DNA from: a virus
Strand: one strand, 5' to 3'
DNA length: 27,086 nt
Virus record (IMG/VR): IMGVR_UViG_3300031524_000073
Coordinates: 1 to 27,086 of that record
Shown: in pieces, positions 6,324 through 26,380 of the stretch
Numbering within the stretch: position 1 is the first letter of the stretch
Layout of the letters: each line of letters opens with the position of its first letter
Program-made: the position numbers and the translations under genes
The notes under the pieces: generated by a model
Database searches by the model: none
What the model was told of the DNA's origin: nothing
The model's input: the letters and a program-made list of their open reading frames with translations, nothing else

Positions 6324-7363
6324 TGAGCATCCCTTCTCATTAAATCAATGAATGCGTTCATTCGCATCTCAGCAGCAGGATCTGCAAAGAAAGCTTGCGG
6401 GGGAGTCAGGGTTAACGTGGTGGTATAACCCTCCTCTTCAGAAATCGTAAATTCCACGGCTGCAATTAGAAAAATTTTGTGAATCCCCATTGAATCCACT
6501 CTCAAATCAGCCAAAGTATTAGGCTCGTAAAGTTCCCCTTTTTGATTCACCCACTCGGGTACCTTGACTTGAATGGAGTTTGCTCTTGAGTATCTCATTT
6601 CTTTTTCCCACTGAGCCCGTTCTTTTGCTCTGCTTGAAAATCCCTGAGCGTCAATGATCAGGGGCCGGTAACGCGTGATGCGCTCATCTGGGACTGTAGC
6701 TAGGCTTTGGGTACTATTTCCTAACTCTTCAGAATAGGCTAGTACCTGATAGCTTGAGTAAAGGGACTTTGACCCAAACTGATAATTGAATTCCATCAGA
6801 TTTTCTTTTTCATAGATCTGAGAATAAGAATCTGAGTTTAAAGTTGGTTTTGATAAAACCAAATCCCCGATTTCATTGGTCATGAGGAGGCAATTTTCAA
6901 TCTGCGCTGCTCGTTCTAGGCATTCAAAAACGGTTTCACCGAAGTGAATGAACCAGGATGGATAATGATGAGGATTATTTAATTTTGAAATGACTTTAAT
7001 TCCAAACGGAAATGATAGCTCTTTAGCTATCGCTTCCAATGTCACAGACTTTTCAAATCCCATTGGATCTTTAATGGCTGCACAATCCACCAGGTCACTC
7101 GTTTTATCGCGAGCCCCAATTCGAAACGATTTTGAAGACGGCGAAAGATGATACCCCACAGTATCCACGTACCCATAAAAAAGAGGATTATAAATATAGG
7201 AAATAATGACTTCAGAACTGGTAGGAATATTTTTCAAATCTGCAAGATCTGGGTTACACTCGATGGATACACCAGCGCAAAGCGTGTCCAAGGATCTTTG
7301 AATCGAAACGGATCTAAAATCAGAATATTCTATTCCATTGATGGAAATAAAGAGATCAGCCAT
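6320..7363 (-). CDS. Mu gp44-like baseplate hub protein (gpP/gpD family)
   Basis: A 347-aa tail hub protein, equivalent to Mu gp44 and P2 gpD. It starts MADLFISINGIEYSDF and carries SVSIQRSLDTLCAGVSIEC and VIISYIYNPLFYGYVDTVGYHL, which resemble the conserved N-terminal hub domain, then IGARDKTSDLVDCAAI (about 93-108), the R-S-K-T-x-D-L-V-D-C-S motif of gp44. The middle contains LERAAQIENCLLMTNEIGDLVLSKP. The hub links the spike to the tube. It overlaps the gp43-like gene by 8 nt. Confidence 0.9.
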   Translation of the reverse strand: MADLFISINGIEYSDFRSVSIQRSLDTLCAGVSIECNPDLADLKNIPTSSEVIISYIYNPLFYGYVDTVGYHLSPSSKSFRIGARDKTSDLVDCAAIKDPMGFEKSVTLEAIAKELSFPFGIKVISKLNNPHHYPSWFIHFGETVFECLERAAQIENCLLMTNEIGDLVLSKPTLNSDSYSQIYEKENLMEFNYQFGSKSLYSSYQVLAYSEELGNSTQSLATVPDERITRYRPLIIDAQGFSSRAKERAQWEKEMRYSRANSIQVKVPEWVNQKGELYEPNTLADLRVDSMGIHKIFLIAAVEFTISEEEGYTTTLTLTPPQAFFADPAAEMRMNAFIDLMRRDAQ

Positions 7364-16579: not shown

Positions 16580-16783
16580 CTAAAGGCCCTTCTCAACACG
16601 GGGATAAAATTGCCGTTTTGGTTCTTTAGATGATAGGTAGCGTGCAATTTGATTCCTGAGCTTGATCAGCTCATTTAAGGAGTGGAAAGAGATTGTTTTT
16701 TCACCAAAAGACACACTGCGGACACCGCTTGCTAAAGCTTGATCGAGTCGTTGCAGATTTTCTTTGGTAAACCCAATCTCCAT
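16580..16783 (-). CDS. gpW-like head-tail joining protein
   Basis: A 67-aa protein, MEIGFTKENLQRLDQALASG at the start and FHSLNELIKLRNQI at about 33-46. The L-x-x-L-x-x-A-L-A-S-G-x-x-x-V pattern followed by a strand pair and S-x-x-E-L-x-x-L-x-x-x-I helix is that of lambda gpW, a small alpha/beta connector needed to finish the head. Lambda gene order (terminase, W, portal B) is kept here, except that brnTA lies between terminase and W. No in-frame change or truncation. Confidence 0.8.
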   Translation of the reverse strand: MEIGFTKENLQRLDQALASGVRSVSFGEKTISFHSLNELIKLRNQIARYLSSKEPKRQFYPRVEKGL

Positions 16784-16854
16784 AATTTATGGTTACATCA
16801 AGAATAAAAAAGAGGGTATTCAACAAAATGTGAGACCCCCCTTATTATTTTTAC

Positions 16855-16883
16855 TTGCTATTGTATATACAATGCGGTATCCT
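16855..16883 (+). promoter_or_regulatory. brnTA promoter with a palindromic operator
   Basis: Candidate -35 TTGCTA (16855-16860), 17-nt spacer, -10 TATCCT (16878-16883). The spacer contains the perfect 12-bp palindrome TTGTATATACAA (16861-16872), well placed for autorepression by BrnA. A transcript starting 6-7 nt after the -10 would begin at about the ATG of brnT (16890), i.e. leaderless. The promoter match is only partial (4 of 6 in each box). Confidence 0.5.
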
Positions 16884-16889
16884 GTATTT

Positions 16890-17168
16890 ATGCATTTTGA
16901 ATGGGACGAAGCCAAGAATCTATTGAACTTTCAAAAGCATGGCATTTGGTTTGAAGAAGCTCAAACCACTTGGGCTGATCCCGCAGCTGAAGAAGTGTTT
17001 GATCCAGACCATAGCGATGATGAAGATAGGTTTTTACGAATCGGGTATTCAACAAAAAATAGGCTACTCATTGTGACGTTTTGTGAAAAGCGGATGAACA
17101 AGATTAGGATTATTAGTGCTAGAAAGGTCACACCTAAAGAGAGGGAGGATTATGAGGAAGGAATATGA
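16890..17168 (+). CDS. brnT: BrnT-family ribonuclease toxin
   Basis: A 92-aa toxin of the BrnT family (type II, RelE-like fold). It shows the family start MHFEWDEAKNLLNFQKHGI, then FEEAQTTWADP, a central DDEDRFLRIGYS and the C-terminal IRIISARKVTPKEREDYEE, which carries the R-x-I-S-A-R-x-A/V-x-x-x-E-R motif. BrnT cleaves RNA and is neutralised by BrnA. I use the ATG at 16890 because the conserved family sequence begins there; an in-frame ATG at 16872 and longer forms add unrelated residues. No Shine-Dalgarno is visible. It lies on the plus strand, opposite all surrounding late genes. Confidence 0.9.
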   Translation: MHFEWDEAKNLLNFQKHGIWFEEAQTTWADPAAEEVFDPDHSDDEDRFLRIGYSTKNRLLIVTFCEKRMNKIRIISARKVTPKEREDYEEGI

Positions 17169-17391
17169 TCTCAAAAGTCTAAAAAAGAGAAAGATTAAAT
17201 CCGATGCTGAAGCAAGTAAAATCGCTACCAGTATCAGACTTGACGGATCTGATGTGGCGGATCTTAAAACGGAGGCGCTCCGAATGGGGATTCCTTACCA
17301 AACCTTAATCGGCAGTATCTTGCATCGATACGTGACTGGTGAGCTCCTTGATCGAAAGCTGGCAACAGAACTGCAATCAGTTCATGGCTAA
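17152..17391 (+). CDS. brnA: BrnA-family antitoxin
   Basis: A 79-aa protein (from the ATG at 17152) with MRKEYDLKSLKKRKIK, then SKIATSIRLDGSDVADLKTEA, a ribbon-helix-helix-type DNA-binding region, and GIPYQTLIGSILHRYVTGEL at the C-terminal side, as in BrnA. It binds and blocks BrnT and represses the operon. The start overlaps brnT by 17 nt and has a GGGAGG site about 4-7 nt upstream, in contrast to the toxin. Its last 15 nt overlap the convergent end of the terminase gene. Confidence 0.9.
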   Translation: MRKEYDLKSLKKRKIKSDAEASKIATSIRLDGSDVADLKTEALRMGIPYQTLIGSILHRYVTGELLDRKLATELQSVHG

Positions 17392-21033: not shown

Positions 21034-21039
21034 ATGTAT

Positions 21040-21348
21040 ATGGTGAATTTACCATTAACTACCTTAAGCCAGATTCAAACCTGTGCGACTACTGGTAAGG
21101 TATCCTTCACCTACAAAGCATTAAGAGAACTGGCTTTGCTTGAGCTAGGCCTAGATGAAGCGGATGTCTGCGATATCCTAAAAAGCCTCAAAGCTTCTGA
21201 CTTCATCGAGCGAAAAAGATCCAAGCTCAGTGAGGAATGGCTTTATATTTTTAAGTTTTATGTTGATCGCACGCTTGTTTATTTGAAACTTATTTTAAGA
21301 GAGGATTGCATTATTATTTCATTCCACGAGGACCACCCCCATGACTAA
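21040..21348 (+). CDS. mqsR: MqsR-family mRNA interferase toxin
   Basis: 102 aa from the ATG at 21040 (an extra in-frame ATG is at 21034). The pattern follows E. coli MqsR: N-terminal TLSQIQTCATTGKVSFTY, LGLDEADVCDILKSLKASDF (about 37-56), then TLVYLKLILREDCIIISFHED (about 78-98), which matches the conserved V-Y-L-K-I...S-F-x-E end with the Tyr of the active region. MqsR cuts mRNA at GCU-type sites and is blocked by MqsA. The residue equivalent to the last catalytic Lys is His here. No Shine-Dalgarno is seen. Confidence 0.85.
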   Translation: MVNLPLTTLSQIQTCATTGKVSFTYKALRELALLELGLDEADVCDILKSLKASDFIERKRSKLSEEWLYIFKFYVDRTLVYLKLILREDCIIISFHEDHPHD

Positions 21349-21781
21349 GAAAACAAATAAAAAACTCAATTCCCCTTCAAACAAGTGCCCTGAGTGTGGA
21401 ACTTCTATGAAAGAAGCTACGGGTAAACTCAGCTTTCCAGTCAACGGGGAAGAGATTTCCGTTTCAGGACTTACTTTTCTTAAATGTCAGAAATGTCAGG
21501 AAATGATTCTAAGGCTGGATGAATCTAGAAAACTCAGGGAACAGGCGATTGAACTCTATCGGAAGAAATACCATCTTCTTTCAGGCGATGAGATCCGATC
21601 ATTGAGAGAAAGAAATGATCTGACTCAAGCTCAATTTGCTAGTCTCCTCCGCTTAGGAGTCAACACCATTTCTCGATGGGAATCAGGGAGAAATGTTCAA
21701 ACTTCAGCCATGGATGTATTATTAAGATTGATTCGTGATGTCCCTGGTACTTTAGCTTATCTTCAAGAATTGGCTGCTTAA
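21341..21781 (+). CDS. mqsA: MqsA-family antitoxin
   Basis: 146 aa. N-terminal zinc-binding Cys pairs C16-x-x-C19 (CPEC) and C49-x-x-C52 (CQKC), then a linker helix and an XRE helix-turn-helix at about 81-128 with NDLTQAQFASLLRLGVNTIS and WESGRNVQTSAMD. This two-domain layout is exactly that of MqsA: the N-domain binds toxin, the C-domain binds the operator. It overlaps mqsR by 8 nt and has a GAGG site about 9 nt upstream, unlike the toxin. A strong hairpin follows 12 bp after the stop. Confidence 0.9.
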   Translation: MTKKTNKKLNSPSNKCPECGTSMKEATGKLSFPVNGEEISVSGLTFLKCQKCQEMILRLDESRKLREQAIELYRKKYHLLSGDEIRSLRERNDLTQAQFASLLRLGVNTISRWESGRNVQTSAMDVLLRLIRDVPGTLAYLQELAA

Positions 21782-23481: not shown

Positions 23482-24174
23482 TCAAGCAACTAAAATCGCC
23501 TTCAGTTCATCAAACTGATCCTCGGTTAATTCGTCTGAATTTTTGACCTTGAATTTTGATTCCATCACTTGTGCAATACTTTTCAGGTCAAGTTTGTAGG
23601 CTTGAGCAAGATCAACGAGTTCCTCACGTCGTGATTTTTTTTCTTCAGAAATGCTCTGAGTTTCAACCATTCTAGGCTCTAAAGTTGCAATTTCTTCATG
23701 AGAGTAAGCACCTCCTAATTCATCAGGAAATGCCATTCGAAGTGCCTGACTCTCAGCCACTTTCTTAATCATTGTTTCTGGCATCCGTGCCCATAAATTT
23801 TTTCCTGTGTTGTACTCCGCTAAATTCACTTCTTCTCGGGCAGGATGATTCCAATCTTGCCTGTAAATCTCAGCCCATGCACCGACACATTCACCTCTTT
23901 GATTTCTTAATATTCCTCTCTTAATTCCTGAGAGTTTCCCTGTACTCATGGCTTTTGCTCGAAGACCATCGATCCCTACCACGATCGAACCAGGGGTATT
24001 TCCAAATTTAATGAAATGAATTTGTCCTGGCTTCAGTGGATCAAGACCCATATTTTTGCAACGATGTAAAAAAAGTTGCAATTCAAGATCAGTTGCTCCT
24101 TTGGCCACTACGTTTTTAATTAATTGAATTTGCTCATGAGTCCAAGTTGGATTGGACTGCGTTGTTACTTCCAT
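23482..24174 (-). CDS. bet: single-strand annealing protein, Bet/RecT family
   Basis: 230 aa. Clear Bet-family features: TWTHEQIQLIKNVVAKGATD (about 10-29), ELQLFLHRCKNMGLDPLKPG (about 32-51), QIHFIKF and PGSIVVGIDGLRAKAMSTGK (about 66-85), WARMPETMIKKVAESQALRMAFP (about 132-154), GGAYSHEE. The protein anneals complementary single strands during phage recombination. No exonuclease (RecE/Exo) is visible in the window, so the partner, if any, lies elsewhere. AAGG lies 8 nt before the ATG at 24174. It sits between an 80-aa ORF and the stand-alone loader-domain gene. Confidence 0.92.
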   Translation of the reverse strand: MEVTTQSNPTWTHEQIQLIKNVVAKGATDLELQLFLHRCKNMGLDPLKPGQIHFIKFGNTPGSIVVGIDGLRAKAMSTGKLSGIKRGILRNQRGECVGAWAEIYRQDWNHPAREEVNLAEYNTGKNLWARMPETMIKKVAESQALRMAFPDELGGAYSHEEIATLEPRMVETQSISEEKKSRREELVDLAQAYKLDLKSIAQVMESKFKVKNSDELTEDQFDELKAILVA

Positions 24175-25175: not shown

Positions 25176-26380
25176 GATGACACCTCGGCAAAAGATTTTT
25201 GGCTTTTCAAATAATTCTGCATGGCCTGCGTATTGGCATCGTTCCGTTCCTGCTGCGCAGTGTTCGAAGGTAAAATCCTGACCCCAGTCTTCCACTCAGT
25301 TCGTAGCTTCTCAGCATCTAGAAGCATCATTCCCACGGCATGACCTGAATTAACGTAGGAGCGATGGCTATGCGTGAGATAGAATTCAGCCACCCAAGGG
25401 GCTTCTATCGCTGGAATCCTAGAAACAAAATTTTTGAGCTGTCCCATGATCTTTTCGTTAGAAACAGGAGGAATCCCGTACCTCTGCTCGTACGCTGCCG
25501 CATAAGCCCTCCAAGTGATAGCAGTAGGTGAAGCACCCTCTTCGTTGACCTGCCGTTGTCTCGTGTCTTCCTCTGGCTGGTCTATGCCTGGAAGAGTCAT
25601 GCTGAGCTGAGGAGTTTGTTCCGTGATGGGAACGTCTGCACTGAATCCTTGTGTTTGAGACTGAACTGGAATTTCCACATGAGTCACTGACGCGTTGGCG
25701 TCCGATCTCTCGTGAGAGGTCGGCGCAACATTTCCCTTCCCTTCCAGTTCCCTTTCCAGTTCCCTTTCCAGTTCCCTTTCCAGTTCCCTTCCAGTTCCCT
25801 TCCCTTCCCCACGTGCATTACATTGCAACTTCACTGACGCGTCAGATTCATTGCACTGTAATTGCACTGACGCGTCAGTGTAACTACACTCACGCGTCAG
25901 CTGACGCGTGGAATCCTGATATAAGGATGTGTTAGAACAGGTTTCCACCGGAGTCGGGCGTGCAAATCTTTTTAAATCGGTCCCGAACTGGGTCAGGGTG
26001 GAGAGGAATTTCAGGAAGTCAGGTGGAGCAAGCAGTTGTCCTGATTCAGGTACTGGAATGGAAGACGCCCGCTCCCTGGGATTAATCACTTGATGAAGCT
26101 TCCACGATGGAATGTCACCATAGAACTTGCCCTTACATTTGTACTTCCTGACAAATCCCTTGGAATGGAAGGCATCCAAAATATCTTCAAAATTCAAATT
26201 GTCCCATGGCAGGATATCTAACTGGAGTGTTTTAGGTCTCCATTCAAATCGACCTTCCCGATCACAAACCGTAAATAAGCCACACCAGGAAAGTCGCATC
26301 GGTAGCTTTGTTCTTTGTTCAAGATCAAATAAATCCTCATGACGAAAAAGCTCTGGTTTAATGGTTCGAATTCTACTCAT
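25172..26380 (-). CDS. phage replication initiator (O-like), carrying internal origin
   Basis: 402 aa. N-terminal winged-helix-type domain (1-110) starts MSRIRTIKPELFRHEDLFDL and has LFTVCDREGRFEWRPKTLQL (about 35-54), ILDAFHSKGFVRKY, IPSWKLHQVINPRERASSIP (about 90-109), as in many phage replisome organisers. A low-complexity linker at about 165-230 is encoded by the iteron array and by a 12-bp tandem repeat (RELE units). The C-terminal part has WRAYAAAYEQRYGIPPVSNE and FVSRIPAIEAPWVAEFYLTH, a helical region seen in such initiators. GGAG about 9 nt upstream supports the ATG. Coupled by 4-nt overlap to the preceding ORF. Confidence 0.85.
   Translation of the reverse strand: MSRIRTIKPELFRHEDLFDLEQRTKLPMRLSWCGLFTVCDREGRFEWRPKTLQLDILPWDNLNFEDILDAFHSKGFVRKYKCKGKFYGDIPSWKLHQVINPRERASSIPVPESGQLLAPPDFLKFLSTLTQFGTDLKRFARPTPVETCSNTSLYQDSTRQLTRECSYTDASVQLQCNESDASVKLQCNARGEGKGTGRELERELERELERELEGKGNVAPTSHERSDANASVTHVEIPVQSQTQGFSADVPITEQTPQLSMTLPGIDQPEEDTRQRQVNEEGASPTAITWRAYAAAYEQRYGIPPVSNEKIMGQLKNFVSRIPAIEAPWVAEFYLTHSHRSYVNSGHAVGMMLLDAEKLRTEWKTGVRILPSNTAQQERNDANTQAMQNYLKSQKSFAEVSS
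25742..25800. repeat. 12-bp tandem repeat in the initiator gene
   Basis: Four exact tandem copies of TTCCAGTTCCCT (25742-25789) and a fifth 11-bp copy (25790-25800). On the coding strand the tract is purine-rich and encodes RELE repeats; the 11-bp copy is read in another phase as GTG/GKG. Copy-number changes of 12 bp would keep the frame. It lies 34 bp from the iteron array. Confidence 0.9.
25834..25910. other. iteron array, probable replication origin
   Basis: Four ACGCGT-centred sites in palindromic context: CTGACGCGTCAG (25834-25845), CACTGACGCGTCAGTG (25865-25880) and the 20-bp palindrome at 25891-25910 that holds two overlapping sites. Their centres (25839.5, 25872.5, 25894.5, 25906.5) are 33, 22 and 12 bp apart, near whole helical turns. 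A fifth half-site, CACTGACGCGT, lies at 25685-25695. Location inside the initiator gene parallels lambda ori within O. Origin function is inferred. Confidence 0.7.

Follow-up and report, generated by a model that had tools for sequence, protein, structure and literature searches.

In-gene iterons are already known from phages: they are established for lambda and have been reported for P22 and phage L. Gene 18 of Salmonella phage L contains six imprecise 11-bp repeats, TGTCCAACGGA, which were proposed as its origin (PMC8022706), and a putative origin has been placed inside a replication gene of a Francisella phage (PMC7924643). In three mycobacteriophages, Miko, Rachaly and Jeeves, repA together with its flanking intergenic regions suffices for replication (Wetzel et al. 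2020, PMC7157519). No repeats were found in the region examined in that study, which did not settle whether the origin lies within repA or upstream of it (PMC7157519), and homology of these RepA proteins to the initiator described here has not been shown. In iteron plasmids, the iterons bind monomeric initiators (PMC5043065). In such plasmids, the coding sequence of rep does not usually contain the iterons.

Here we analyse a viral DNA stretch of 27,086 nucleotides, hereafter the window (IMG/VR record IMGVR_UViG_3300031524_000073, positions 1 to 27,086), in which ACGCGT cores are clustered within the linker-coding part of an initiator gene. The arrangement resembles lambda ori, and also P22 gene 18, in its iterons in the middle of the initiator gene, its inverted repeats, a neighbouring loader gene and, by inference, a multi-site nucleoprotein complex (PMC7466680, PMC5043065, PMC8022706). 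With phage L it shares 11-bp repeats within the initiator gene, and in both cases each relative has its own iteron (PMC8022706).

The initiator and its neighbouring genes

Membership of a replication initiator family was met by profile search, in which residues 1–115 matched PHROG 16167 “replication initiation protein” (E 1.6e-37), and the C-terminal part matched phrog_11527 (E 3.7e-18). The protein matched no family in Pfam or NCBIfam, a PDB sequence search returned no credible match, and no homology to lambda O was found (no Pfam match, the PHROG matches being to other initiator families). An AlphaFold2 model of the N-terminal domain (mean pLDDT 93.6, pTM 0.85) confidently predicts a winged helix. 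Structure matches to this model were weak (best Foldseek E 0.039; VIA Z ≤ 6.6), those to 2v79 (DnaD N-domain, Z 5.7), 4pql (Z 6.1) and the initiator 4pt7 (Z 5.7) being tied with Fur and other winged-helix proteins. As far as the model predicts, the solved structures matched represent a generic winged helix, with DnaD and plasmid initiator N-domains among them.

The position of the downstream gene (Table 1) is often occupied by a helicase loader or helicase in homologues. A P-like or DnaC-like loader follows the initiator gene in HK639 and F10, and ten downstream genes scanned from other loci included lambda-P-like (n = 2), DnaB-like helicase (n = 2) and primase-like (n = 1) genes. The initiator’s gene cluster also encodes a RecT-family annealing protein (23482–24174, minus strand; Pfam E 7.5e-36). 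Elsewhere in the window, an MqsA-type antitoxin gene (21341–21781, plus strand; Pfam E 1.9e-14) is preceded by a 104-aa ORF, and 21034–21781 (plus strand) is likely to be a toxin-antitoxin pair. At 16764–17391 (plus strand), opposite in strand to the structural genes, two overlapping ORFs of 134 and 91 aa may be a BrnT/BrnA pair, judging by resemblance alone.

Table 1. Positions of the initiator gene, its ACGCGT cores and associated features in the window.
Feature	Position	Strand	Description
Downstream gene, 199 aa	24442..25041	minus	phrog_10105; DUF6475 match weak, below cut-off
Initiator gene, 402 aa	25172..26380	minus	N-terminal winged-helix domain (predicted), iteron-bearing repetitive linker, C-terminal domain
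Lone distal ACGCGT core	25690..25695		Gene offset 685; beyond purine tract
Purine-rich tract (purines on coding strand)	25732..25810	minus	Adjoins array; lengthened by 12-bp tandem repeat encoding ELER
11-bp lattice, eight units	25810..25897	minus	ACGCGT intact in units 1, 3 and 6; other five decayed
ACGCGT core 4	25837..25842		Gene offset 538; within 12-bp palindrome 25834–25845
ACGCGT core 3	25870..25875		Gene offset 505; within 16-bp palindrome 25865–25880
ACGCGT core 2	25892..25897		Gene offset 483; lattice unit 1; also in palindrome 25891–25910
ACGCGT core 1	25904..25909		Gene offset 471; 12 bp to core 2; in 20-bp palindrome 25891–25910
N-terminal winged-helix domain, residues 1–118	26027..26380	minus	AlphaFold2 model
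Array-1 place (about a third of homologues)	26158..26186	minus	Gene offsets 194–222, codons 65–74

ACGCGT cores cluster in the initiator gene of the window

The window contains seven copies of ACGCGT, compared with a mean of 1.22 (maximum 4) in dinucleotide shuffles, and five of the seven lie within approximately 220 bp of the initiator gene (Table 1). Two hundred Markov simulations of the window never placed more than one ACGCGT in a 226-bp stretch. When the codons of the gene were shuffled, keeping both protein and codon usage, the mean fell to 0.63 copies and five were reached in only one of 5000 shuffles.

A preliminary description, made from the sequence alone, had claimed five cores within the initiator gene, four of them in palindromes of 12–20 bp, with spacings of 33, 22 and 12 bp and no similar palindromic copies elsewhere in the window. 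All of this held: the five cores are borne out by the counts and shuffles, the spacings are as claimed, the palindromes measure 12, 16 and 20 bp (the last holding two cores), and in the copies at 6671 and 8534, as in the distal core at 25690, the palindrome does not extend past the 6 bp of the core. The reported coincidence of the 33-bp spacing with a repeated peptide unit (DASVQLQCN / DASVKLQCN) also held; 33 bp is, however, three 11-bp steps and is not set by the peptide. The term “strict palindromes” held only in part, as the long palindromes are local to the window and homologues share just the 6-bp core.

The decayed units of the 11-bp lattice generally retain parts of a spacer, (c/g)A(g/c/a)TG. 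Between gene offsets 471 and 571, exact 5-mer repeats numbered seven at lag 22 (0.38 in codon shuffles, 0 of 2000 being as high) and five at lag 11 (0.30 in codon shuffles, p 0.007). Spacings of 12, 22 and 33 bp bring the array within the definition of an in-gene ACGCGT array used for homologues below. It is degenerate: one step measures 12 bp, no pair lies at exactly 11 bp, a second array found in some homologues (array 1, below) is missing and the purine tract is interrupted, making it a worn member of the ACGCGT array family.

Core and phase are conserved while peptide and frame are not

The full-length protein found no relatives when used as a query against viral and genome contigs, whereas N-domain alignments did, and relatives were fetched from viral and genome contigs with N-domain queries. 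The gene was found in 301 loci, reduced to 242 by near-copy removal and to 239 complete genes once three running off contig ends had been left out. Also left out of the counts were L001 and L002, which are the window itself, and L060 and L061, which have no N-domain match. By tblastn, 152 annotated phage records match the initiator. Genes were assigned to the ACGCGT array family if the linker-coding part held at least two neighbouring cores at 10–12, 21–22 or 33 bp, and 158 of the 239 complete homologues, window included, did so.

ACGCGT occurred 792 times in the 239 homologues against 128 in codon shuffles (maximum of 100 shuffles: 147), and neighbouring pairs exactly 11 bp apart numbered 375 against 4.4 (maximum 11). 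A pair at 10–12 bp was present in 151 of the 239 genes, compared with 4.7 genes in codon shuffles (maximum 12). The most frequent spacing between neighbours was 11 bp (375 of 615), followed by 22, 10 and 21 bp. When hexamers were ranked by phased pairs, ACGCGT came first, with 150 genes. Its density was 4.01 per kb within the initiator gene and 0.11 per kb in 1199 kb of flanking sequence, 35 times fewer.

The linker cores of homologues were spread over the three reading frames (196/174/168), ACGCGT being translated as TR, DAS or RV according to frame, frequently within a single gene. As 11 is not a multiple of three, successive cores fall in different frames; selection acts on the DNA and not on the peptide. 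Genes with unrelated linkers still carry the array and the spacers between cores differ. Of the 534 linker cores, 297 are flanked by two bases that match symmetrically. These counts show an array with a phase of 11 bp that is conserved as DNA in rotating frames. In the comparison of palindromes and codons that had been proposed as a check, homologues keep the 6-bp core and the phase and keep neither the peptide nor the reading frame; the earlier suggestion of helically phased, lambda-like iterons within the gene is strongly supported.

Two array places and an adjoining purine-rich tract

Two arrays were present in 73 of the 239 homologues, a linker array only in 85, array 1 only in six and no ACGCGT array in 75. 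Array 1, found in 79 homologues (73 + 6), is optional and does not define the family. The typical core positions of array 1 are offsets 194, 205 and 216 of the gene (codons 65–74), and the corresponding place of the window (Table 1) contains no ACGCGT. The array-1 codons correspond to helix 64–73 of the AlphaFold2 model, which we infer, by its position, to be the recognition helix of the winged helix.

A purine-rich tract adjoins the array in homologues. Of the 158 array genes, 149 had their longest purine run begin no more than about 60 nt past the last clustered core. The median length of the longest run was 36 nt in array genes and 33 nt over all genes, the latter compared with 16 nt in codon shuffles. 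The best 60-nt purine fraction was 0.85 over all genes against 0.80 in codon shuffles, and since this is barely above the shuffles, much of the purine richness simply reflects the coding of a charged linker. Of 156 homologues, 45 had a distal core no more than 60 nt beyond the purine run, compared with 10.6 (maximum 19) in codon shuffles. In the window the tract is interrupted, with a longest pure run of 16 nt and a best 60-nt fraction of 0.87, inside the codon-shuffle range, and its 12-bp tandem repeat, spanning 25737–25801, looks like slippage.

Base composition gave no lambda-like signal. GC content at 25250–25999 was 0.51–0.52 compared with 0.415 for the whole window, the purine tract was among the most GC-rich parts of its neighbourhood, and the criterion of a lambda-type A+T-rich region was not met. 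GC skew, suggested earlier as a check, was uninformative, with no sign switch at the array. We rejected it as evidence for the origin: the cumulative minimum, at 25893, is close to the end of the record and beside a C-rich tract, and the minimum in VvAW1 coincides with a switch in gene orientation.

Arrays found without reference to protein

A protein-blind scan of viral contigs for three ACGCGT cores at 11-bp steps gave at least 120 stretches, and 119 loci were examined; many of these contigs overlap the protein-derived homologue set. The array lay inside an ORF matching the initiator N-domain profile in 104 of the 119 loci (146 of 164 sites), showing it to be nearly exclusive to initiator genes. 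Of the 15 remaining loci, five sit in other initiator-type genes, four identified by family search and one by protein identity, and ten of the 119 are outside any gene recognised as an initiator.

Two of these other initiator-type loci (L359 and L379) have their triple arrays in genes matching other replication-initiation families, phrog_9474 among the matches, and two (L390 and L438) in genes matching DUF1376/primosomal families, while the triple array of L452 encodes the same protein stretch as that of L379. These loci suggest that ACGCGT arrays are shared by different initiator types or have arisen in them by convergence.

The extended palindrome TGACGCGTCA was rejected as the shared unit. 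Two copies within 30 bp were found in 49 viral stretches, none encoding a relative (tblastn of the window protein against these 49 loci found none, best E 0.65), and three cores at 11-bp steps were present in none of the 19 that were looked at more closely. Steps measured 33, 33 and 32 bp in L042 and 12 and 23 bp in L040. Pairs of TGACGCGTCA 36–38 bp apart were seen in small viral contigs (L003, L005, L007, L009, L012, L019, L024, L048 and others), which are not relatives of the initiator.

Other iteron words at the same step

At lag 11, the 75 homologues lacking ACGCGT arrays still gave 299 5-mer repeats, spread over 51 of these genes, where codon shuffles gave 37 (maximum of 20 shuffles: 60). 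Alternative words included GGGGAAGCAAY at 11 bp, CCCGGGCATN at 10 bp and AATTCACCG at 10 or 11 bp, as well as GTGCA-type words in the RARNIKP clade. Words of the array-1 zone that were shared with the linker were weakly enriched in genes without an ACGCGT array (32 against 12.7, maximum 21; 10 of 75 genes). In three members of the RARNIKP clade (L056, L058 and L062; Acinetobacter, HK639 and yong1) a second repeat, TGATTCC, occurs further down the linker, where it encodes DSLNLIP units at 7-, 14- and 21-bp steps.

The N-domain closest to that of the window (61% identity) is encoded by an uncultured Francisellaceae contig (L154). Its phased word is CCCGGGCAT at 10 bp, at the same place (gene offsets 483–523), and a strong DUF6475 gene lies downstream, in the position of the window’s weak DUF6475 gene; the iteron has apparently changed between the two. 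AACTTC is the core word in the RepA-like gene of Gordonia phage Jablanski (L354, 1501–2400), where it occurs at 191, the place of array 1, and twice in the linker (415 and 425, 10 bp apart), the linker copies being followed by a GGAACAGGG repeat tract. The Jablanski RepA-like protein is matched by 491 phage records.

Protein positions 98–101 best separated the ACGCGT genes, with N at position 100 in 163 of 164. The post-winged-helix residues HQ-VINN-RE go with ACGCGT, an array being present in 92 of 97 HQ-VINN genes, and HQ-R(I/L)(T/S/G)G accompanies words of the GGGAAGCA or GAAACA type. An independent-pairs test of recognition residues against iteron word was not significant, with only seven supported pairs, and the link of the HQ-xINN-RE segment to the iteron word is confounded by kinship.

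A proposed origin and its alternatives

We consider it very likely that the cluster is a replication origin, lying within the linker-coding part of its own initiator gene, in the absence of any binding or replication data. Binding by the initiator and origin activity, both put forward in the preliminary description, remain inferences. In the proposed mechanism, the winged-helix domain of the initiator would bind the ACGCGT cores, about one per helical turn, so that a regular row of subunits would form along a single face of the helix. The complex of initiator and array may then strain or open the DNA at or beside the purine-rich tract, and the downstream loader would bring in the helicase. Binding, strand opening and helicase recruitment are inferred by analogy with lambda O and plasmid initiators (PMC7466680, PMC5043065); the role of the purine tract is also inferred, its presence beside the array in homologues being shown.

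The repeats might instead follow from codon bias and from a linker whose peptide is repetitive (DASV.LQCN, ELER), without any function at the level of DNA. The linker is indeed repetitive in protein, a spacing of 33 bp corresponds to exactly 11 codons and charged linker residues are encoded by the purine tract. Codon shuffles, however, preserve the protein but not the array, each step of 11 bp shifts the frame, one word thereby becoming TR, DAS and RV, and unrelated linkers retain the array, all of which leaves this explanation practically ruled out. Recent tandem duplication by slippage, giving unselected repeats, finds some support in the adjoining 12-bp tandem repeat (25737–25801), which resembles slippage. 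It too can be set aside almost entirely, as the cores stay while the spacers differ between homologues, and the same phase recurs among strongly divergent genes and, within the gene, at two distinct positions.

A further possibility is that some other protein binds the array, for example a repressor, a partition protein or a nucleoid factor of the host, and that the array has its role in partition or autoregulation and not in initiation. Arrays of short repeats are also found in partition sites (parS arrays, PMC7157519), there are no initiator-binding data, and arrays in other initiator families are what a shared host factor predicts. Against this, one gene, the initiator, holds the array in 104 of 119 loci, and the iteron word varies by initiator clade with place and phase constant, as expected from co-evolution with the initiator. 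We regard this alternative as very unlikely.

The reading we prefer, an origin within the gene of its own initiator, can be extended to a bolder one, which has in our view a slightly less than even chance of holding. A large superfamily of phage initiators, spread over many bacterial groups, may have an in-gene origin with one core per turn and a fixed layout. Its word may change by clade (ACGCGT, GGGAAGCA, GTGCA-type, CACGTG, CCCGGG, AACTTCC), and word and short segment (HQ-xINN-RE and variants) may change together, amounting to a protein-DNA code that can be read. Where a gene has two arrays, the second site would fall within the codons for the presumed recognition helix, and the same nucleotides would both encode the reader and be read. 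ACGCGT arrays in other initiator families might then represent convergence or array exchange.

Comparison with known systems

In the literature searched, which excluded most subscription journals, we recognised no report of initiator genes containing ACGCGT arrays. Four features are apparently new: the conserved phase code based on ACGCGT, its rotation through the reading frames, the layout with two arrays and the change of word from clade to clade. Those parts of the phage L account that bear on the present array contain no two-array layout, frame-rotation test or survey (PMC8022706). Its word also differs, and phage L is a single phage whose kinship to the present initiator is not shown. The RepA-like initiators of Gordonia and mycobacterial phages have an N-domain homologous to that of the initiator, though again with a different iteron word.

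These features provide a sequence-only rule for locating the origin in temperate phages and phage-plasmids that form a widespread group, and an example of two codes in one stretch, in which an 11-bp DNA signal passes through three reading frames. With the word associated with HQ-xINN-RE, origin specificity can be tested directly, and through it the compatibility and switching of replicons. Lambda differs in that its iterons are inverted repeats of approximately 19–20 bp beside an A+T-rich unwinding tract, whereas here the step is 11 bp, the core is 6 bp and the adjacent tract is purine-rich. With a neighbour that is purine-rich and not AT-rich, both the site and the mode of opening of such an origin call for an explanation.
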